Shown here: piece by piece, positions 7,606-34,297 of the stretch
How positions within the stretch are numbered: the first letter of the stretch is position 1
Layout of the letters: every line of letters begins with the position of its first letter
Assembly (NCBI GenBank): GCA_022799175.1
Contig: JAAWNY010000029.1
Location: 1-35,204 of the forward strand
Direction of reading: 5' to 3'
DNA length: 35,204 nt
Source: Lachnospiraceae bacterium
Lineage (GTDB): Bacteria > Bacillota > Clostridia > Lachnospirales > Lachnospiraceae
Notes under the pieces: model-generated
Seen by the model: the letters and a program-made list of their open reading frames with translations, nothing else
What the model was told of the DNA's origin: nothing
Database searches by the model: none
Program-made: the position numbers and the translations under genes

Positions 7606-8406
7606 ATGTTTGGAAAACGTCTGATTAGTGGTATTATTCTGGTCATTCTTGCTATTCTAATAGTAGGGAGAGGCGGGGTGCTCCTTTATATAACAGCAGG
7701 ACTGATCTCGCTTATGGGATTATTTGAATTATACCGTGTAATGAAGATCGAGAAAAATCCCCTGGGATTCGTGGGATATCTGACAGCAATAGCTTATTAT
7801 GGCCTGGTGTGGTATGAAGGACAGCAATTTGTGATTCTCATGGCGATTGCTGCTTTGATGTTTTTGATGGGAATCTATGTATTTACATTTCCGAAATATC
7901 GGACAGAAGAGGTGACAGTAGCATTTTTTGGTGTGTTTTATGCAGCGGTGATGCTTTCTTATCTCTATCAAGTACGGGCAATGACGGATGGGATTTATCT
8001 GGTTTGGTTGATTTTTTTTAGCTCTTGGGGATGTGATACTTGTGCGTATTGTGCAGGGATGCTGTTTGGTAAACATAAGCTGGTACCGGTTTTAAGCCCA
8101 AAGAAGACGATTGAGGGGGCAGTCGGTGGCGTAGTGGGAGCAGCGCTTCTAGGTTATGGTTTCGCATGCGTATATGGCGGTAAGATGATAGATGTAGGAA
8201 ATCCCCGGGTGGCCTGTGCATTAGCCTGTGCAATTGCGGCAGTGATTTCTCAGGTGGGGGATCTGGCAGCGTCAGCGATAAAAAGGAATCATGATATCAA
8301 GGATTATGGACATTTAATTCCGGGACATGGAGGGATTTTGGATCGGTTTGACAGCATGTTGTTTACGGCACCAGCGATTTATTTCGCGGTGACATTTTTG
8401 CGGTGA
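7606..8406 (+). CDS. cdsA: Phosphatidate cytidylyltransferase
   Basis: A 266-residue integral membrane enzyme making CDP-diacylglycerol from phosphatidate and CTP. Roughly seven to eight hydrophobic segments fill the sequence. The CdsA signature is at the C-terminal part: LSPKKTIEGAVGG, then SQVGDLAASAIKRNHDIKDYG, split by a loop, and PGHGGILDRFDSM. AAAGGGGG precedes the ATG, 18 bases after uppS. Confidence 0.95.
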   Translation: MFGKRLISGIILVILAILIVGRGGVLLYITAGLISLMGLFELYRVMKIEKNPLGFVGYLTAIAYYGLVWYEGQQFVILMAIAALMFLMGIYVFTFPKYRTEEVTVAFFGVFYAAVMLSYLYQVRAMTDGIYLVWLIFFSSWGCDTCAYCAGMLFGKHKLVPVLSPKKTIEGAVGGVVGAALLGYGFACVYGGKMIDVGNPRVACALACAIAAVISQVGDLAASAIKRNHDIKDYGHLIPGHGGILDRFDSMLFTAPAIYFAVTFLR

Positions 8407-16650: not shown

Positions 16651-16661
16651 ATCAGAGGTAT

Positions 16662-16735
16662 CGAGGCGTGGCTCAGTTTGGTAGAGCGCTGCGTTCGGGA
16701 CGCAGAGGCCGCAAGTTCGAATCTTGTCGCCTCGA
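16662..16735 (+). tRNA. tRNA-Pro (anticodon CGG)
   Basis: 74-nt cloverleaf. The acceptor CGAGGCG pairs perfectly with CGCCTCG. The anticodon stem CTGCG/CGCAG encloses TTCGGGA with CGG at the centre. The T loop is TTCGAAT. CCA is not encoded. It reads CCG codons. It is identical to 34021-34094. Confidence 0.96.
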
Positions 16736-16767
16736 TGTACTCGCAAAGAGTACATATCGTTTGTTGT

Positions 16768-16839
16768 GGCCTCATGGTCAAGCGGTCAAGACGACGCCCT
16801 CTCACGGCGTAAACCCGGGTTCGATTCCCGGTGAGGTCA
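16768..16839 (+). tRNA. tRNA-Glu (anticodon CTC)
   Basis: 72-nt cloverleaf. The acceptor GGCCTCA pairs with TGAGGTC (one G-T). The anticodon stem ACGCC/GGCGT encloses CTCTCAC, giving anticodon CTC for GAG. The T loop is TTCGATT. It is identical to 34118-34189. A short hairpin (TGTACTC/GAGTACA) lies in the 32-base spacer before it. Confidence 0.95.
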
Positions 16840-16841
16840 TA

Positions 16842-16872
16842 AAATGCTTTGGACAAAGTCCAAAGCATTTTT
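16842..16872 (+). terminator. Terminator-like hairpin between tRNA-Glu and tRNA-Thr
   Basis: A 13-bp perfect stem, 16842-16854 with 16858-16870 (AAATGCTTTGGAC core), 3-nt loop, and a U-run formed by the end of the stem plus TT. It lies within the tRNA cassette, so either tRNA-Thr is transcribed by readthrough or the hairpin serves processing. Confidence 0.7.
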
Positions 16873-16875
16873 GAC

Positions 16876-16948
16876 GCTTCCGTAGCGCAGTTGGTAGCGC
16901 AACGCATTCGTAATGCGTGGGTCGCCGGTTCGAGTCCGGCCGGGAGCT
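16876..16948 (+). tRNA. tRNA-Thr (anticodon CGT)
   Basis: 73-nt cloverleaf. The acceptor GCTTCCG pairs with CGGGAGC (one T-G). The anticodon stem ACGCA/TGCGT encloses TTCGTAA, anticodon CGT, reading ACG. The T loop is TTCGAGT. It is identical to 34225-34297. Confidence 0.95.
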
Positions 16949-16972
16949 CTAAAATTTGGGTTTAAAAACGTG

Positions 16973-26462: not shown

Positions 26463-27572
26463 GTGGCAGAACATATACTGGAACTGGATGGAATCAAAAA
26501 GAGTTTTGACAAGACCCAAGTACTGAAAGGCATCCATCTGTCCATCCAGCAGGGAGAATTTATTACTTTCCTTGGTGCATCTGGCTGTGGGAAGACTACT
26601 ACTCTGCGGATCATTGCCGGTTTGGAAACTCCAGACGAGGGAAAAGTCTTTCTGAATGGGAAGGATGTAACAGGTTTGGAGCCTAATCGGAGGAATGTAA
26701 ATACGGTATTTCAGAATTATGCTCTGTTTCCTCACATGAATGTATTTTCCAATATTGCTTATGGTCTTCGGTTGAAACGATTACCGAAAAAAGAAATTGT
26801 CAAAAAAGTGGAGGAAATACTGGAGCTAGTGCAGCTATCCGGATATGAAAAACGAATGCCTTTTGAGCTTTCCGGTGGACAGAAGCAGCGGGTGGCGATT
26901 GCTCGGGCGGTGGTCAACAATCCGCAAGTGTTGCTTCTTGATGAGCCTTTGGGGGCGTTGGATCTGCAACTTCGCCGACAGATGCAGATTGAGCTGAAGC
27001 GTATTCAGAAACGTCTGAAAATTACATTTATCTACATTACGCACGATCAGGAGGAAGCTCTTAACATGTCCGACCGGATCGTGGTGATGGATAATGGACA
27101 ACTAGAGCAGGTAGGTACCCCCAATGAAATCTATTATCATCCGAGAACCAGTTATGTGGCACGGTTTGTAGGAACGGCCAATATTTTGTCTGGGCGGTTA
27201 ACCCGGGTGGAAGATGGGATTGCCTGGGTTGAGGTTGTCTGTCAGTCTAGAGAACCGGCAGTTCTGGTTCGGGCAAAGCTTACGGCAGCTCAGGCAGAGA
27301 AAAATCAGTTGGGACAGATAAAACCGGGACAGAAGGTATCTATGGCTGTGCGAAGTGAAAATATTCTGTTGGAAAAGGAAGCGGGTCCAGGTTTGCGTCT
27401 TTCGGTGATTGAGAAAAACTTTGCTGGGGGAATGTTGCGCATTTGTCTGGACGGAGGCTTGCAGGGAGAATTGGTATCGAGTCGTCAGGGGATGGATTCT
27501 GCTTTTCAGGCTGGCGATAGGATCACGGCATACTGGGAGCCAGAGCATGGAATATTGGTCGATCTGGAATGA
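26463..27572 (+). CDS. potA: Spermidine/putrescine ABC transporter ATPase
   Basis: A 369-residue ATP-binding subunit. Walker A is LGASGCGKTTT (37-47), the Q loop follows in NTVFQNYALFPHM, the ABC signature LSGGQKQR is at about 136-143, Walker B VLLLDEPLGALD at about 156-167, and the H loop in YITHDQEEAL. A C-terminal TOBE domain (about 240-365) is typical of the PotA/CysA group. The start is GTG, with AAGGAG 7 bases upstream. The order potA-potB-potC-potD and tight overlaps mark a polyamine importer operon. Confidence 0.93.
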   Translation: MAEHILELDGIKKSFDKTQVLKGIHLSIQQGEFITFLGASGCGKTTTLRIIAGLETPDEGKVFLNGKDVTGLEPNRRNVNTVFQNYALFPHMNVFSNIAYGLRLKRLPKKEIVKKVEEILELVQLSGYEKRMPFELSGGQKQRVAIARAVVNNPQVLLLDEPLGALDLQLRRQMQIELKRIQKRLKITFIYITHDQEEALNMSDRIVVMDNGQLEQVGTPNEIYYHPRTSYVARFVGTANILSGRLTRVEDGIAWVEVVCQSREPAVLVRAKLTAAQAEKNQLGQIKPGQKVSMAVRSENILLEKEAGPGLRLSVIEKNFAGGMLRICLDGGLQGELVSSRQGMDSAFQAGDRITAYWEPEHGILVDLE

Positions 27573-27593
27573 TATATGGAGGAAACCAGAAAA

Positions 27594-28502
27594 ATGGGGC
27601 AAACTACGAAAGAAAGCGAAACGATTGTGCGATGGAAAAAAACAAAACCAACAACAAGGAGAAACCGGTGGTGGCTGATTGTGATGCCCTTATATCTGTT
27701 TACGATTTTTTTTGTTGCGCTTCCTATGGTGTATCTGTTGGTTCTAAGCTTTTTAACCAGGGCTAGAACCTGGGGTGTGGTGAATGAATTTACATTAGAT
27801 AATTATATCCGGATTGCGAAGCCAGTTTATTTAAATACGTTTAAAGAGTCCTTTCAGATGGCTGTCATTACTACCGCCGGAACTTTGCTGATCGGATATC
27901 CTTTTGGATATTTTATGGCTCGAATGTCGGCAAGAACCAAAAGCCTGATGATGCTTTTGGTAGTGATTCCTTTCTGGACGAGTGCTTTGATGCGCATGTA
28001 TGGTTGGATTATCATTTTTCGCAGCAATGGACTTCTTGATAAGTTGCTTATGGGGATGGGGCTTACCGATTCGCCACAAAAGCTGTTGTATTCTTATCCG
28101 GCGGTTCTGGTAGGAATGATATATTCTCTTTTGCCCTTTATGATCCTTTCTATCTATTCCAGCACGGATAAGATGGATTGGAGTCTGGTGGAGGCAGCGA
28201 GAGATTTAGGGGCAACAAGAGGGAAAGCCTTTTTTACGATCACCATGAAACTGACGTTGCCAGGGATTTTGTCGGGCATTGTGTTGGTGTTTATCCCCTC
28301 TATGGGACTGTTTTTTATCGCCGATATTTTAGGCGGTGGTAAGATTATGCTGGTGGGAAATCTGATCCAGAATCAGCTTCAAAATGGCAGGGATTGGCCG
28401 TTTGCTGCTGCCTTGTCCGTAGTCCTGATGATATTTACCTCTGTGATGATTTGGATTTATCGCAGAGTGACAGGAGTAAGGGAGCTGGAGGGATTATTGT
28501 GA
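27594..28502 (+). CDS. potB: Spermidine/putrescine ABC transporter permease PotB
   Basis: A 302-residue inner-membrane permease with six predicted transmembrane helices, the first at about 27-47 (WWLIVMPLYLFTIFFVALPM). The EAA loop that meets the ATPase is VEAARDLGATRGKAFFTITM. ATG 27594 is chosen because GGAGGA at 27578-27583 sits 10 bases before it; an ATG at 27576 in frame overlaps that site. The stop overlaps the GTG of potC. Confidence 0.92.
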   Translation: MGQTTKESETIVRWKKTKPTTRRNRWWLIVMPLYLFTIFFVALPMVYLLVLSFLTRARTWGVVNEFTLDNYIRIAKPVYLNTFKESFQMAVITTAGTLLIGYPFGYFMARMSARTKSLMMLLVVIPFWTSALMRMYGWIIIFRSNGLLDKLLMGMGLTDSPQKLLYSYPAVLVGMIYSLLPFMILSIYSSTDKMDWSLVEAARDLGATRGKAFFTITMKLTLPGILSGIVLVFIPSMGLFFIADILGGGKIMLVGNLIQNQLQNGRDWPFAAALSVVLMIFTSVMIWIYRRVTGVRELEGLL

Positions 28503-29284
28503 GAAGAAGGATTCGATTTTCCGTTATTTATCAGGTCATTCTGTTACTGTTAATGTACATACCTATTTGTGTAGTAGTCATCTATTCCTTTAATGAATCG
28601 CGCAATTCGACGATCTGGACCGGATGGAGTCTCGATTGGTATCGAAAGTTGATGAAAAACCGTTCTTTGTTGGAAGCATTAAAAAACAGCGTGATTTTGG
28701 CAACGATAAGCAGTGGGGCGGCAGGAATCATCGGAACGCTAGGAGCAGTCGGTATGGCCAGAATCGGCTGGCGAAGTAAAGGTGTCGTGGAATATATTTC
28801 TTCGATTCCGATTATGATTCCGGAAATTATTTTAGGAATGGTGTTTATGGCCTTTTTTGCCATGCTGAACCTGCCTTTTGGCATGGTGACTCTGGTTCTT
28901 GGCCATACCACTTTTTGTGTGCCTTATGTGTATATGATGGTGAAAGCCAGCCTAGTGGGGATTGACCGATCTCTGGGGGAAGCGGCAAAAGATCTGGGAG
29001 CTTCAGAAAGAAGAGCATTTTTTGATATCACCTTGCCGTTGATTCTGCCAGCCGTGTTTTCGGGTATGCTTCTGGCTTTTGCCATGTCGTTGGACGATGT
29101 GGTGATTAGTATTTTTGTGACAGGTGCGAAGACGAACACGCTTCCCATACGTATTTATACACAGTTAAAATCAGGTGTGACGCCAGAGATCAACGCATTG
29201 TGTACGCTTATGTTGGCGGTGACTTTTTTGCTAGTGGGGATGTCAAGACTGTTAGGAGGCATCAGAAAAAAATACCCTCAGTGA
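28499..29284 (+). CDS. potC: Spermidine/putrescine ABC transporter permease PotC
   Basis: A 261-residue permease with about six transmembrane helices; the first (YQVILLLLMYIPICVVVIYS) follows a basic N-terminus. The EAA loop is GEAAKDLGASERRAFFDITL. SFNESRNSTIWTGWSLDWY matches the usual PotC/PotI periplasmic segment. The start is GTG 28499 with GGAGGG upstream, overlapping the potB stop by four bases. An earlier in-frame ATG at 28394 lies within potB and is rejected. Confidence 0.92.
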   Translation: MRRRIRFSVIYQVILLLLMYIPICVVVIYSFNESRNSTIWTGWSLDWYRKLMKNRSLLEALKNSVILATISSGAAGIIGTLGAVGMARIGWRSKGVVEYISSIPIMIPEIILGMVFMAFFAMLNLPFGMVTLVLGHTTFCVPYVYMMVKASLVGIDRSLGEAAKDLGASERRAFFDITLPLILPAVFSGMLLAFAMSLDDVVISIFVTGAKTNTLPIRIYTQLKSGVTPEINALCTLMLAVTFLLVGMSRLLGGIRKKYPQ

Positions 29285-29308
29285 GCGAATGGCCTTTATT
29301 CACTGAGG
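29276..29308 (+). other. Hairpin spanning the potC stop, before potD
   Basis: A perfect 9-bp stem CCTCAGTGA (29276-29284) pairs with TCACTGAGG (29300-29308), 15-nt loop. It includes the potC stop codon. No U-tract follows, so it probably affects processing or relative expression of the binding protein. Confidence 0.55.
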
Positions 29309-29350
29309 TGAGATTTATGGAGGAAGAAAATGCGAAGGAGGAAAAGGATT

Positions 29351-30433
29351 ATGAGAAAAACAAAAGGATTTTTTGCTGTGCTGATGGCGATGGCTTTGGT
29401 GGTGGTCAGCCTTTCGGGATGCAAGGGAAGCGGTGGGGAAAGTGAGAAGAAAGAAAAGGGTGATCCTGGTGAGCTGAATATTTATACCTGGGCAGAATAT
29501 GTTCCTCAGGATGTGATCGACCGTTTTGAGTCTGAGACGGGAATTCGGGTGAATTATACGAATTTTGAGGCGAATGAGGAAATGTTAGCAAAGTTAGAGA
29601 CCAGTGAGGGCGGAGAATATGATATTATCATTGCTTCGGACTATATCATTAAGATCGCGGCAGAAGAAGGGTTAGTGAAAGAGCTGGATAAAGAAAAGAT
29701 TCCAAATTTTAAAAATATTGATCCTGTTTTCCAGAATTTTTTTTATGATCCGGAAAATAAATTGACAGTTCCTTATGGTCCGGGGATTCCTTTATTGGTG
29801 TATGATCCATCGGTGGTTACCTGTGAAATCACTGGCTATGATTCTTTATGGGATGCGTCGCTAAAGGATAATCTAGCGTTGATGGATAGTGAGCGGGTAG
29901 TTATGGGAATGACCTTAAAAACCATGGGGGAGTCATTTAATACAGAGGATTTGGATGTGATCCGGGCAGCCGGGAATAAATTGATGGAGCTGGCGCCCAA
30001 TGTACGGGTGCTGAGTCAGAATCAGACGCAGGATTATCTGCTTAGCGGAGAAGTGAGTGCGGCGTTTCTCTTTACTTCTCAGGTTGTTTTGGCATTGAGC
30101 CAGAATCCGGAGCTAGAGGTGGTTTATCCCAAAGAGGGACTTGGTTTTGGGGTGGATGCTGCATTTATTCCATCAAAAGCTCCGAACAGCGATAATGCCC
30201 ATGCGTTTTTGAATTTTATTTTGGACGGGGAAATGGGGGCGCAAATAGCACAACAGACTTATTATCTTTGTCCTAATCAGGCGTCTTATGAGTTTCTGGA
30301 TGAGGAGTTTAAGAAAAGCTTGATTATCAGTACAGATGATGTTCCCAATGGGGAATTTATTCAGGATGTAGGGCCGGAGGCGACATCATTACATGAGGAG
30401 TTTTGGACGGAGTTTAAGGCGGCGCTGGATTAA
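29351..30433 (+). CDS. potD: Spermidine/putrescine-binding lipoprotein PotD
   Basis: A 360-residue extracytoplasmic binding protein anchored as a lipoprotein; the lipobox is LSGC with Cys24. The mature protein starts with a Ser/Gly/Lys linker, then ELNIYTWAEYVPQDVIDRFE, which is a clear PotD/PotF opening. GEYDIIIASDYIIKIAAEEG and VPYGPGIPLLVYD are further family regions. AAGGAGG ends 9 bases before ATG 29351; an ATG at 29330 overlaps this site. It completes potABCD. Polyamine preference (spermidine or putrescine) is not resolved. Confidence 0.92.
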   Translation: MRKTKGFFAVLMAMALVVVSLSGCKGSGGESEKKEKGDPGELNIYTWAEYVPQDVIDRFESETGIRVNYTNFEANEEMLAKLETSEGGEYDIIIASDYIIKIAAEEGLVKELDKEKIPNFKNIDPVFQNFFYDPENKLTVPYGPGIPLLVYDPSVVTCEITGYDSLWDASLKDNLALMDSERVVMGMTLKTMGESFNTEDLDVIRAAGNKLMELAPNVRVLSQNQTQDYLLSGEVSAAFLFTSQVVLALSQNPELEVVYPKEGLGFGVDAAFIPSKAPNSDNAHAFLNFILDGEMGAQIAQQTYYLCPNQASYEFLDEEFKKSLIISTDDVPNGEFIQDVGPEATSLHEEFWTEFKAALD

Positions 30434-30477
30434 AAGGGGCGTTTGCGGATTAAAAAATTGGAAATTTTAAAATTTGA

Positions 30478-30506
30478 TTGACAAATGTTTTTTTCGGAGT
30501 TATGAT
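30478..30506 (+). promoter_or_regulatory. Promoter of the T-box leader
   Basis: Consensus TTGACA (30478-30483), 17-bp spacer, TATGAT (30501-30506). The inferred start of transcription is near 30513. This is among the strongest promoters in the window. Confidence 0.85.
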
Positions 30507-30512
30507 TAGCAA

Positions 30513-30809
30513 TAATTTTACAAGTAAATGTGTTGATAAGGAAGAGTACCGATTACGAAGTCTGCAGAGAGCCATGGATAGGTGTGACATGGTGACTGGA
30601 TTTTCGGGAAAATCGCCTTTGAGCAGTCTGACTGAAGGAAAAAACCGATAAGTATCTGTGTAGGTCAAACCGGTGGGTGTCCGTTACTACGCCGCCTGTT
30701 ATACCGCGAAAGCGGTCAGATGGGAATGAGTGACTGCCATCAGGCAGTAATAAGGGTGGTACCGCAGAAGTTTTAGCTTTTGTCTCTTAGGGAGGCAAAA
30801 GCTTTTTTT
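30513..30809 (+). promoter_or_regulatory. T-box riboswitch, predicted isoleucine-specific
   Basis: The full T-box layout is visible. The S-turn strand AGTA (30545-30548) is followed by AGAGAG and GGTGTGA of the distal stem I loops. CCGA (30548-30551) pairs with TCGG (30604-30607). The 3' specifier strand is GAAA-ATC-G (30608-30615), giving specifier ATC (Ile), followed by CCTTTGAG. The T-box AAGGGTGGTACCGC (30752-30765) has bulge TGGT, which fits a tRNA ending in A-CCA as expected for tRNA-Ile. The antiterminator TAAGGG (30751-30756) can pair with CTCTTA (30784-30789), competing with the terminator. The nearest downstream genes are the dctPQM TRAP transporter. Start coordinate is inferred from the promoter. 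Confidence 0.88.
30775..30809 (+). terminator. Terminator of the T-box leader
   Basis: A 12-bp stem, AGCTTTTGTCTC (30775-30786) with GAGGCAAAAGCT (30792-30803), one G-U, 5-nt loop, then a run of T to 30809. Its left arm is shared with the antiterminator. Confidence 0.92.
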
Positions 30810-30833
30810 GTTTTTAAAAAAGTAAGGTCATAT

Positions 30834-30950
30834 CTGCTGTCAGAGACAGCAGTTGACAAACAGATATCTCACAACAAGCAGTGAGATATTTGTTCCTTGC
30901 GATATTGCCGAATACCTATGTGCTACAATATTTGGCTTATGGATCGCAAG
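30834..30950 (+). other. Three consecutive hairpins between the T-box and dctP
   Basis: First: CTGCTGTC (30834-30841) with GACAGCAG (30845-30852). Second: a 14-bp stem 30859-30872 with 30881-30894, one G-U, 8-nt loop. Third: CTTGCGAT (30896-30903) with ATCGCAAG (30943-30950), enclosing an inner stem of CCGAATA with TATTTGG. No coding frame is present. The third brackets a possible promoter. Confidence 0.6.
30921..30929 (+). promoter_or_regulatory. Possible extended -10 promoter upstream of dctP
   Basis: TGC-TACAAT at 30921-30929 is a good extended -10; there is no convincing -35 at 16-18 bp (a TTGCGA at 30897-30902 is 21 bp away). If active it would transcribe dctPQM independently of the T-box. 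Confidence 0.4.
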
Positions 30951-30993
30951 AATAAATATTATGTATGATTTATTTTAAGGAGGATGAACAATT

Positions 30994-32091
30994 ATGAAAA
31001 AAAATGGAAAAATGATGGCGCTGGCTTTGTCAGCAATGTTAGCTTTGAGCATGACTGGCTGTGGTTCTTCTGAAAGCCAGAGTACAGGGACCACAGCAGA
31101 CCAGAAAGAGACTACAGCAGCTGAGGCTTCGGCAGAGAGTAAAGAGGCTGATGACAGCAAGCAGGCGCCGGCGGAGGGAGCCACAGTATTTAAGCTGGGA
31201 ACTACTGTTAATGAGCAGGACAGTTTTCAGGTAGCGGCAGAAAAGTTTGCGGAACTGGTGGCAGAGCGCACAAATAACGCTTATGCGATTGAGATTTATC
31301 CCAACGGAACCCTTGGTGGTGAGCGTGATATGCTGGAGAGTATGCAGATTGGCACCTTGGATATGGGTATTATTACCAGCGGCCCATTTATCAATTTTTC
31401 TTCTGCCATGGGAGTTTTAGATATGCCGTATCTGTTTGCCAGCAATGAAGAGGCGTATGCGGTGCTAGATGGCGAGATTGGTCGCGAGCTTTTGGATACT
31501 TTGGAGGATTCCGGTCTGAAAGGTTTGGCTTATGCAGAGCGTGGTTTCCGTAACTTGACCAATAGCGTAAAGCCAATTCAGACAGCAGCCGATCTTTCTG
31601 GCATGACGATTCGTATTATGGAAAATGACGTATATACGGCCAGCTTTCAGGCAATGAATGTCAATGCCACTCCGATGGCATGGGCAGATGCTTTGACAGC
31701 ATTGCAGCAGGGAACCGTACAGGGCCAGGAAAATCCGATCAATGTAATCTATTCTTATAGTTTGTGGGAATCCCAGAAATATGTGACACTGGACCGCCAT
31801 TCTTACTCTACAGCGATTATTACCATGAGCGCGGCTTTGTTTGACTCTCTGGATGCGGATACTCAACAGATCTTTTTGGATGCAGCTCAGGAGGCGGCCG
31901 AATATGAGCGTGCATGGGTGGCGGATCAGGAAAGCTCTCAGCTTCAGGCTTTGAAGGACAATGGTATGGAAGTGATTGAGAATCCGGATTTGGCGTCCTT
32001 TAAAGAGGCAGTGCAGCCGGTATATGATCAGTATAGTGAGTACAGCGATTATGTGGCCAGAATTCAGGAAGTAATTGCAAATATGCAGTAA
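30994..32091 (+). CDS. dctP: TRAP transporter substrate-binding lipoprotein, DctP family
   Basis: A 365-residue extracytoplasmic binding protein. The lipobox is LSMTGC with Cys23, followed by a Ser/Thr/Glu-rich linker (about 24-62). The mature domain has FKLGTTVNEQDSFQVAAEKF, IEIYPNGTLGGERDMLESMQ and MTIRIMENDVYTASFQAMNV, whose Arg normally holds the substrate carboxylate, and LQQGTVQGQENPINVI. TRAP systems use a sodium gradient to import organic acids. GGAGGATG lies before ATG with AAGGAGG 11 bases upstream. The T-box suggests the substrate relates to isoleucine. Confidence 0.93.
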   Translation: MKKNGKMMALALSAMLALSMTGCGSSESQSTGTTADQKETTAAEASAESKEADDSKQAPAEGATVFKLGTTVNEQDSFQVAAEKFAELVAERTNNAYAIEIYPNGTLGGERDMLESMQIGTLDMGIITSGPFINFSSAMGVLDMPYLFASNEEAYAVLDGEIGRELLDTLEDSGLKGLAYAERGFRNLTNSVKPIQTAADLSGMTIRIMENDVYTASFQAMNVNATPMAWADALTALQQGTVQGQENPINVIYSYSLWESQKYVTLDRHSYSTAIITMSAALFDSLDADTQQIFLDAAQEAAEYERAWVADQESSQLQALKDNGMEVIENPDLASFKEAVQPVYDQYSEYSDYVARIQEVIANMQ

Positions 32092-32113
32092 TTCCAATAA
32101 AAACGTAAGAAAT

Positions 32114-32156
32114 GGTCAGGAATATTGCTTTTTGAATGTTAAGCTGTTTCCTGACC
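32114..32156 (+). other. Hairpin between dctP and dctQ
   Basis: GGTCAGGAA (32114-32122) pairs perfectly with TTCCTGACC (32148-32156) around a 25-nt loop. There is no U-tract, so partial termination or mRNA stabilisation of the dctP message is more likely than a full stop. Confidence 0.6.
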
Positions 32157-32193
32157 GCTTCTTTAGGACCATTTATGAAAGGGGATTCCTATC

Positions 32194-32691
32194 TTGATTA
32201 TTGTTCATGGTATTCATAAACTCAGTGATATACTGGATAAAATTGTGGAGGTCGTGATCGTATTCATGCTGGGGGCGATGGTGGTGATTACAGGAGCGCA
32301 GATTGTCTGCCGCATTTTCTTTACCTCGCTGGCCTGGAGTGAAGAGGCGACCCGATATCTGCTAATCTGGAGCACACTGTTAGGTGCTGGCTGTGTGTAC
32401 AAACATGCCGGTCATATCTCTATTTCTATTGTCCAGGATATTTTACCAGACAAAGCAAAGGATGTGCTGCAAATCGTGATTCATGGCTTGTGCAGTTTCC
32501 TTTTTGTTTTGATTATGTATTATGGAATTCAGTATTTTGGAAGACAGGGAAAGCAGCTTTCTCCTGCGATGCGTCTGCCTATGCGCTATATTTATACCTG
32601 CATTCCGATTGGCTGTGGGATTATGGCGTTTCATGCGCTGGATGCCGTGATCCAGAGTTTTTTGCATTTGCTGGGAAAGGAGGAAGCATAA
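32194..32691 (+). CDS. dctQ: TRAP transporter small permease, DctQ family
   Basis: A 165-residue membrane protein with four predicted helices (about 15-40, 50-70, 93-113, 130-155). RIFFTSLAWSEEATRYLLIW is the usual DctQ region, and GCVYKHAGHISISIV follows. The start is TTG, with AAAGGGG 9 bases upstream; nearby ATGs are in other frames. The one-base gap to dctM shows coupling. Confidence 0.9.
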   Translation: MIIVHGIHKLSDILDKIVEVVIVFMLGAMVVITGAQIVCRIFFTSLAWSEEATRYLLIWSTLLGAGCVYKHAGHISISIVQDILPDKAKDVLQIVIHGLCSFLFVLIMYYGIQYFGRQGKQLSPAMRLPMRYIYTCIPIGCGIMAFHALDAVIQSFLHLLGKEEA

Positions 32692-32692
32692 T

Positions 32693-33952
32693 ATGGCAGC
32701 GCTATTGTTTATAACTTTTATTGTGTTGCTTGTTTTGGGAGTTCCAGTAGCATTTTCCATTGTGCTGTCTTCGGTGGCAGTTATGGCTAAGGGCGATGTT
32801 CCCCTTTTAATGATCGTACAGCGAATGTTTGCTTCCGCGGATTCTTTTTCGCTTATTGCAGTGCCATTTTTCATTTTTGCTGGAGATCTGATGGCCAAGG
32901 GAAAGGTATCTAAGGTGCTGGTAGAATTTGCTGAGGCATTGCTGGGGATGATCAAAGGTGGCCTCTCCATTGTATCGGTGCTGGCTGGTATGTTTTTTGC
33001 AGCGATTTCAGGTTCTGGCGCGGCAACGACTGCGGCAGTGGGAGCTACGCTGATCCCGGAATTGAAAAAAAGAGGCTATAATGAAGAAAAATCAGCGGCT
33101 TTGATTGCGGCCGCCGGTACGATTGGGGTGGTGATTCCGCCGTCTGTTCCTATGGTGCTTTATGCAGTTATTGCAGAGCAGAGCGTAAATACTTTGTTTA
33201 AGAATGGCTTTGTTCCAGGGGTGTTGATGGGAGTGATCCTGATTGCGATTTCTCTCTACGAGGCACACAAGAAAAACTATCCCAAAGGAGCGGCTTTTTC
33301 TTTCAAAAATGTGGCGAAAACTTTTATTAAGGCAATATGGGGAATTTTGATGCCTTTGATTATTCTCGGCGGGATTTTTTCAGGGTATTTTACCCCTTCG
33401 GAAGCAGCAGATGTGGCAGTCATTTATGCCATCTTGGTATCGGCTTTTGTGTACCGAGATATGGGCCCAAAGGAACTGTTTAACATTATGAAAGGCAGCG
33501 CGAAAACTTCAGCTGTAATTATGATTATTATTTCCTGCAGTGGTCCTTTTGGCTGGGTTTTGGCCAACTGGAAGATTCCAGAGGCTATTTCCAGTTCTGT
33601 TTTAAGTGTTTCTAGCAATCCCTATATCATTATGTTTTTGATTGCCATCATCATTTTGATTGCTGGAGTGTTTATGGAAACTTCATCAGCCATTATTATT
33701 TTGACGCCAGTTTTTTTGCCGTTGGTAAAGGCTATGGGTATCAGTCTGGTACATTTTGGGATTGTGTTTGTGGTGGGCATTGCGATCGGTATGATTACTC
33801 CGCCAGTGGCCATTAATTTGTTTGTTGCATCAGGAATTACGGGGTTGCCGATTGAAAAGATTTCTAAAGCGGTAATACCTTATTTGTTGGGACTTGTTCT
33901 GGTGTTTTTTATGATTCTTTATGTACCCATGTTGGTGCCAGGATTGATGTGA
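32693..33952 (+). CDS. dctM: TRAP transporter large permease, DctM family
   Basis: A 419-residue membrane protein with about 11-12 helices, the transport channel. Motifs are FFAAISGSGAATTAAVGATL, the AAAGTIGVVIPPSVPMVLYA hairpin, and the second hairpin GIAIGMITPPVAINLFVASG. Length is normal. AGGAGG lies 9 bases before ATG. No terminator is visible between it and the next tRNA promoter. Confidence 0.95.
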   Translation: MAALLFITFIVLLVLGVPVAFSIVLSSVAVMAKGDVPLLMIVQRMFASADSFSLIAVPFFIFAGDLMAKGKVSKVLVEFAEALLGMIKGGLSIVSVLAGMFFAAISGSGAATTAAVGATLIPELKKRGYNEEKSAALIAAAGTIGVVIPPSVPMVLYAVIAEQSVNTLFKNGFVPGVLMGVILIAISLYEAHKKNYPKGAAFSFKNVAKTFIKAIWGILMPLIILGGIFSGYFTPSEAADVAVIYAILVSAFVYRDMGPKELFNIMKGSAKTSAVIMIIISCSGPFGWVLANWKIPEAISSSVLSVSSNPYIIMFLIAIIILIAGVFMETSSAIIILTPVFLPLVKAMGISLVHFGIVFVVGIAIGMITPPVAINLFVASGITGLPIEKISKAVIPYLLGLVLVFFMILYVPMLVPGLM

Positions 33953-34009: not shown

Positions 34010-34020
34010 ATAGGAGATGT

Positions 34021-34094
34021 CGAGGCGTGGCTCAGTTTGGTAGAGCGCTGCGTTCGGGACGCAGAGGCCGCAAGTTCGAATCTTGTCGCCTCGA
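34021..34094 (+). tRNA. tRNA-Pro (anticodon CGG), second copy
   Basis: Identical over all 74 positions to 16662-16735, including the TTCGGGA anticodon loop. Confidence 0.96.
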
Positions 34095-34117
34095 TGGTTT
34101 CCATAGTAGGATATCAT

Positions 34118-34189
34118 GGCCTCATGGTCAAGCGGTCAAGACGACGCCCTCTCACGGCGTAAACCCGGGTTCGATTCCCGGTGAGGTCA
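34118..34189 (+). tRNA. tRNA-Glu (anticodon CTC), second copy
   Basis: Identical over all 72 positions to 16768-16839. Confidence 0.95.
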
Positions 34190-34193
34190 TAGG

Positions 34194-34221
34194 TGCTTTG
34201 GACAATGTCCAAAGCATTTTT
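34194..34221 (+). terminator. Terminator-like hairpin between tRNA-Glu and tRNA-Thr, second copy
   Basis: TGCTTTGGAC (34194-34203) pairs with GTCCAAAGCA (34207-34216), loop AAT, then TTTTT. It corresponds to the hairpin in cassette 1. Confidence 0.7.
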
Positions 34222-34224
34222 GAC

Positions 34225-34297
34225 GCTTCCGTAGCGCAGTTGGTAGCGCAACGCATTCGTAATGCGTGGGTCGCCGGTTCGAGTCCGGCCGGGAGCT
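34225..34297 (+). tRNA. tRNA-Thr (anticodon CGT), second copy
   Basis: Identical over all 73 positions to 16876-16948. Confidence 0.95.

Follow-up and report, generated by a model that had tools for sequence, protein, structure and literature searches.

In the available text of a survey of T-box regulation (PMC2494555), the transporters given as T-box-controlled belong to seven families, namely MFS, APC, NSS, DAACS, LIVCS, NhaC, and ABC, and tripartite ATP-independent periplasmic (TRAP) transporters are not in that list. Here, we describe a 35,204-nt stretch of DNA (the window) from a Lachnospiraceae bacterium (assembly GCA_022799175.1, contig JAAWNY010000029.1, positions 1 to 35,204, forward strand), in which an isoleucine-type T-box leader directly precedes the TRAP transporter genes dctP-dctQ-dctM. 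This leader is like those of the branched-chain amino acid carriers in the accessible part of the same survey (PMC2494555, Table 1) in its type, its isoleucine specifier, and its apparent control of uptake, but those leaders control LIVCS and ABC carriers rather than a TRAP system. No pairing of a T-box with a TRAP transporter was found in the open-access literature, a search that did not extend to the supplements of T-box surveys, where such a pair may be listed. As far as could be seen, the regulator is of a known kind and the target family and proposed substrate are new. Our overall explanation, to which we assign a probability of roughly 0.55, is that the isoleucine T-box controls a TRAP importer of branched 2,3-dihydroxy acids.

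An isoleucine T-box leader and its conservation

The leader and the operon comprise the following features, given in window positions.

30478..30506, + strand: predicted promoter of the leader, TTGACA-17-TATGAT (consensus scan, 11/12 matches)
30524..30790, + strand: T-box leader RNA, RF00230 (128.3 bits, E 2.2e-28)
30612..30614, + strand: specifier codon ATC, isoleucine (covariance model and ortholog comparison; ATC six bases before GAG/GAA in 23/23 leaders)
30757..30760, + strand: T-box bulge TGGT, which would pair with the NCCA end of a tRNA whose discriminator is A (covariance model)
30775..30810, + strand: intrinsic terminator, 13 pairs plus a T run (scan; stem -17.1 kcal/mol folded alone)
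30994..32091, + strand: dctP, TRAP solute-binding protein (PF03480, E 1.6e-86; TIGR00787 above cut-off; lipoprotein by reading of its start)
32194..32691, + strand: dctQ, small TRAP permease (PF04290, E 2.8e-32)
32693..33952, + strand: dctM, large TRAP permease (PF06808, E 7.3e-110; TIGR00786 above cut-off)

An earlier, sequence-only reading of this region had proposed an isoleucine-type T-box in front of dctP-dctQ-dctM, with ATC as the specifier and a TGGT bulge fitting the discriminator of tRNA-Ile, and all three elements were borne out. The RF00230 match is full length (1-219/219), exceeds the gathering score of 93, and is the only T-box detected by Rfam in the window. The specifier stands in the context GAA-A-ATC-G-CC, and tRNA-Ile has discriminator A, which a UGGU bulge fits. 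The terminator stem proper spans 30775-30803 with the T run after it, and the 3' arm of the antiterminator falls within the 5' arm of this stem, so that the two structures are mutually exclusive. Judging from their order and spacing, dctP, dctQ, and dctM probably form one co-transcribed operon. Uncharged tRNA-Ile would bind stem I via ATC and the antiterminator via UGGU, and in the tRNA-bound leader the terminator at 30775-30810 would not form and dctPQM would be transcribed. We infer this antitermination in vivo, as well as the direction of transport and the ligand considered below.

One result weighs against this interpretation of the leader: when the entire leader is folded by minimum free energy (MFE), it scores only slightly better than shuffled sequences (z -1.65, with 13/200 shuffles as good). 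Because this signal is weak, MFE was not used as evidence, and it is the covariance model and the conservation of the leader that support the T-box. The window's genome contains ten T-box matches (Rfam). The other nine precede genes that we named by reading the next proteins, a tryptophan-type ABC binding protein, trpB-like, pheS, proS, tyrS, thrS, leuS, ileS, and an aspartyl/asparaginyl synthetase. Like the leader of the window, the one in front of the gene read as ileS (L009) has the specifier ATC, as identified by eye, but it controls a synthetase.

To follow the leader beyond the window, a search of 116 related genomes recovered orthologs in 9 other genomes of the genus (80-93% identity), and scanning public genomes yielded 40 loci, 34 of which (L041-L074, 64-93% identity) were taken as orthologs; nine of these were taken as repeats of loci L012-L020. 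L045 was excluded from the count since its upstream DNA is too short, leaving 33 usable orthologous loci. In a class-level search of 391 genomes, 22, the window's genome included, had a match that reached E 1e-60. As a control set, we used 41 loci whose DctP proteins are more distant, each with at most 1.5 kb on each side (only about 300 bases upstream in L029 and L135).

Conservation of the leader at orthologous loci, which the sequence-only reading had put forward as a check, was seen at 22 of the 33 by covariance model and pattern. It was absent at the other 11 (L058, L059, L060, L062-L065, L069-L071, and L074), ten of them confirmed by a second RNA scan and L074 judged by pattern and eye only. 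Together with the window, the 22 orthologs make up a set of 23 leaders, among which L055/L072 and L057/L073 are near copies. All but one exceed the Rfam gathering score, L054 falling below it at 83.1 bits (E 1.4e-16). ATC occupies the same place in 23/23 leaders, and specifier and bulge are constant throughout. With a lax pattern, a promoter-like site precedes 20/23, the exceptions being L051, L057, and L073. The genes around the orthologous loci are mostly unlike one another; therefore, leader and operon stay joined while their surroundings change. No T-box was found within the scanned sequence (up to 1.5 kb) upstream of the 41 distant DctP loci. There is thus good support for isoleucyl-tRNA control of this TRAP importer, and we consider it very likely, on sequence grounds, that this control is exerted through the isoleucine T-box.

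Two observations concern loci of other kinds. At L039:253-507 (- strand), a T-box lies downstream of a paralogous dctP; it was discounted as a control of that gene, since it is downstream of dctP on dctP's own strand. A palindrome-like site, TGAA..TTTTTCA-N-TGAA, lies just before and extends into the promoter -35 region in 9/11 T-box-free orthologs (L058-L060, L063-L065, L069, L070, and L074) and is not shared by L062 and L071. This may perhaps be a transcription factor site that replaces the T-box.

Partnership with ilvD and the proposed ligand of DctP

IlvD acts on 2,3-dihydroxy acids and yields 2-oxo acids, from which transamination gives isoleucine and valine. In four T-box loci, ilvD is the gene after dctM: L057 (Oribacterium sp. 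C9), L061, L073, and, on another branch, L066, where 36 nt separate the two genes. Eight of the 22 genomes from the class-level search, which belong to two further families (f45 and f47), also hold close DctP homologs (54-69% identical), and in 8/8 of these (L141-L148) ilvD directly precedes dctP and dctQ, with dctM following (in L144 the contig ends within it). Six importer-side ilvD proteins score 766-797 bits against the TIGR00110 cut-off of 618.15 (NCBIfam), and the L066 protein scores 814.9; by this profile, the six scanned partner proteins are true dihydroxy-acid dehydratases. Across all 12 genomes, the importer-linked ilvD is above the cut-off (766-815 bits). It is the sole gene over the cut-off in 10/12 and the sole TIGR00110 match of any kind in 7/12, three of these seven being drafts 77-82% complete. 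As the partner is a high-scoring ilvD and often the only match, the importer in these genomes sits with a biosynthetic enzyme and not with a sugar-acid dehydratase. No ilvD was found in the scanned flanks (up to 1.5 kb on either side) of the 41 distant DctP loci. In the window's genus, ilvD is located away from the importer; it is not among the window open reading frames (ORFs) read, and the genome's copy lies on contig C97.

In two f45 genomes, a T-box operon with ilvC, leu genes, and ilvB has no ilvD (the leu genes named from their proteins, the ilvC and ilvB genes by profile). The f45 and f47 importer loci (L141-L148) have no T-box at the gathering score; a regulator gene lies nearby, GntR-like in f45 and response-regulator-like in f47, with matches below the cut-offs. 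In L147, a c-di-GMP-I riboswitch (7727-7818) lies after dctM and before the next gene.

In a tree of 88 DctP rows, all T-box- and ilvD-linked proteins group together with support 100/99; this clade has 44 rows, 42 of them distinct, and its earliest branches are the ilvD-linked f47 and f45 rows. The T-box rows form one clade of 22 (plus L045), with L066 standing among rumen rows (labels pooled by eye). The simplest history would be an ancestral ilvD-dctPQM unit, with the isoleucine T-box gained in or before these lines; most lines would later have lost ilvD from their operon, and most rumen rows the T-box, the direction of change being our reading of the tree. A separate gain of the T-box in L066 is equally possible.

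Since an isoleucine T-box precedes the importer and ilvD adjoins it in some relatives, the importer probably brings in building blocks of isoleucine and valine. We propose that it would take up branched 2,3-dihydroxy acids, namely 2,3-dihydroxy-3-methylvalerate and perhaps 2,3-dihydroxyisovalerate, which IlvD would convert to the oxo-acid precursors of both amino acids. That the substrate is a branched-chain pathway compound of some kind appears likely, and that it is dihydroxy acids in particular is about an even bet.

The gene content of some genomes bears on this proposal. G135 (L141 and L164; 97% complete, 310 contigs) carries ilvD-dctPQM and, behind a T-box, an operon that we read as leuACDB (leuC also by profile), and neither ilvC (best 19.6 bits) nor ilvB (best 406.9 bits against 538.35) was found over the cut-offs in this genome. 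If this lack is not an assembly gap, its 2-oxoisovalerate would have to come from outside, as the import hypothesis predicts. The gene prfC is also missing at the same threshold in G135 and in G474, and is thus uninformative on G135. The apparent loss of ilvB and ilvC in G332 (80% complete) was not used as evidence; leuC and prfC, their neighbours in relatives, are missing there too, so the absence is likely a gap. In G507 (L066), ilvC and ilvB are present only as contig-end fragments.

The solved structures nearest to DctP provide a further approach to the ligand. The nearest Protein Data Bank chains by sequence are 4nq8, 4p9k, 4pdd, 4xeq, and 4pdh, and 4xeq ranks first in structure comparison. 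Pantoate or erythronate has been reported in a receptor set that, from the accessible part of the paper, includes 4xeq by elimination, and the contacts given there for this group are an acidic residue, two arginines, an aromatic residue, and an asparagine at 76/152/173/196/213 in 4P47 numbering (PMC11668362). In 42/42 orthologs, E110, R186, R207, W230, and N247 are invariant, with the published spacing of 76, 21, 23, and 17; these residues were assigned by spacing and not by direct alignment to 4P47, and most are common to paralogs too. 4xeq is the only one of the entries 4xeq, 4nq8, 4pdd, 4pdh, and 4p9k/4pak to be named in that paper, and the division of pantoate and D-erythronate among them is presumed here. 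These receptors are like DctP in being its best sequence matches and among its best structure matches, with agreement in contacts and spacing, but they come from Gram-negative sources and are only 37-40% identical. Pantoate and 2,3-dihydroxy-3-methylvalerate, on which IlvD acts, are isomers.

In L120, L124, L149, and L150, the TRAP operon has panB and panE immediately in front of dctP (named by NCBIfam in L149 and by tblastn to L149 in the other three), and their products are candidate pantoate importers. They resemble the system described here in that a TRAP importer adjoins genes for enzymes that handle a branched hydroxy acid, but their DctP proteins are 41-46% identical and belong elsewhere in the tree, and they have no T-box at the gathering score.

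The sequence-only reading had suggested branched-chain amino acids or 3-methyl-2-oxopentanoate as the substrate. This is not supported as stated and is probably not the best guess, because the recurrent partner IlvD acts on 2,3-dihydroxy acids and import of oxo or amino acids would not need it; the close solved receptors with hydroxy acids, as far as the accessible part of PMC11668362 describes them, weaken it further. Uptake of branched 2-oxo acids (3-methyl-2-oxopentanoate or 2-oxoisovalerate), which would require only transamination, is unlikely. It would agree with the isoleucine T-box in front, an alpha-keto acid receptor of the TRAP type has been described (PMC1839085, in its available text), and ilvD and the importer would then supply a single oxo-acid pool; however, the gene that recurs is ilvD, with no aminotransferase gene noticed among neighbours that were not searched for one, and the acidic residue said in the accessible part of PMC11668362 to contact the ligand hydroxyl corresponds to E110, present in 42/42. 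Import of isoleucine or other branched-chain amino acids as such, in line with the common practice of taking the T-box amino acid as the substrate of the controlled transporter (PMC2494555, accessible part), is very unlikely, given that the close receptors have been reported with carboxylates that lack an amino group (PMC11668362, likewise in part) and that it gives no reason for the linkage to ilvD.

The structures themselves, and the panB/panE TRAP operons among relatives, would fit pantoate or some other hydroxy acid that has no part in isoleucine synthesis, with ilvD linked since oxoisovalerate also feeds pantothenate. We consider this quite unlikely: the panBE-linked importers occupy other branches, their DctP proteins differ at 76, 77, 78, 128, 214, and 250, which are constant here, whether or not they line the pocket, and an isoleucine specifier has no obvious use for pantoate. 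It is also conceivable, but highly improbable, that the T-box is real and dctPQM is driven mainly by another promoter, the T-box being a remnant or affecting only read-through. In its favour, the gap between terminator and dctP is 183 nt long and holds a second structured region; against it, a consensus scan of 30350-32300 detected nothing like a plus-strand promoter from the terminator to dctP, which is not proof, and specifier and bulge are constant in all 23 leaders. Import of branched 2,3-dihydroxy acids under T-box control remains our preferred explanation.

A second hairpin and the surroundings of the operon

In the window's ORF list, no ORF of at least 90 residues starts between leader and dctP. 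The gap between terminator and dctP contains the following RNA features.

30826..30858, + strand: second conserved hairpin, GGTCA-nnn-CTGCTG...CAGCAG-n-TGACA (covariation, model search of the genus)
30859..30950, + strand: two further hairpins, arms 30859-30872/30881-30894 and 30896-30903/30943-30950 (folding; similar stretch by eye only in L041)

The segment 30826-30993 folds far better than shuffled sequences (z -6.85). Its first hairpin was found in the window and 19 orthologs, and the pattern was not found in L057, L061, L066, and L073. Three of the 20 copies (L043, L052, and L054) were dropped for long loops before covariation was counted in alignment A3 (17 rows, 15 distinct), in which 98.0% of cells are paired and 5/10 pairs changed on both sides, with 0/500 shuffles as high. 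A hairpin model was searched against 24 genomes of the genus, scoring 150 candidates per genome of 775 to 2223 and not covering L052. Eight matches were below E 1e-6, in eight genomes and each in the dctP leader, and a ninth leader match was the L043 copy (G012; 26.4 bits, E 8.4e-4). The remaining 19 listed matches have E 0.0096 or above and lie outside the dctP leader; the L054 copy was not recovered, the lone G003 match being on another contig. The hairpin was thus not seen as a general element of the genus, its strong matches being confined to the dctP leader. A promoter inside it (its 3' arm contains TTGACA) was rejected, since the scan found none there and the stem covaries as RNA. One possibility is that the hairpin protects or marks the mRNA, another that it binds a regulator. 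Between T-box and dctP, L057 (4606-4763) and L073 (4747-4904) have a Clostridiales-1 RNA (RF01699).

Directly upstream of the leader is a potABCD-like ABC operon (window 26463-30433), the NCBIfam scores of which are under the equivalog cut-offs and so assign it no substrate. The tRNA genes Pro(cgg)-Glu(ctc)-Thr(cgt) form a cluster that occurs twice (window 16661-16949 and 34020-34297) with identical tRNAs and diverged spacers, and the two copies bracket 17 kb that hold the ABC and TRAP operons. In L042 and L067, three tRNAs near dctPQM have Rfam scores equal to those of the window.

Possible implications for TRAP importers and intermediate exchange

Taken as a whole, the picture that emerges is of a dedicated importer of isoleucine/valine 2,3-dihydroxy acids leaked by neighbours, induced by a shortage of isoleucyl-tRNA and with a second RNA element in its leader; some bacteria, with G135 as the example, may have given up the early steps of the pathway and depend on such import. 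We regard this full picture as tentative, its odds being somewhat short of even. If true, TRAP importers would join the targets of T-box regulation, and a group of gut and rumen TRAP systems without an assigned substrate would gain a testable ligand. It would also suggest that bacteria exchange pathway intermediates, and not only finished amino acids.
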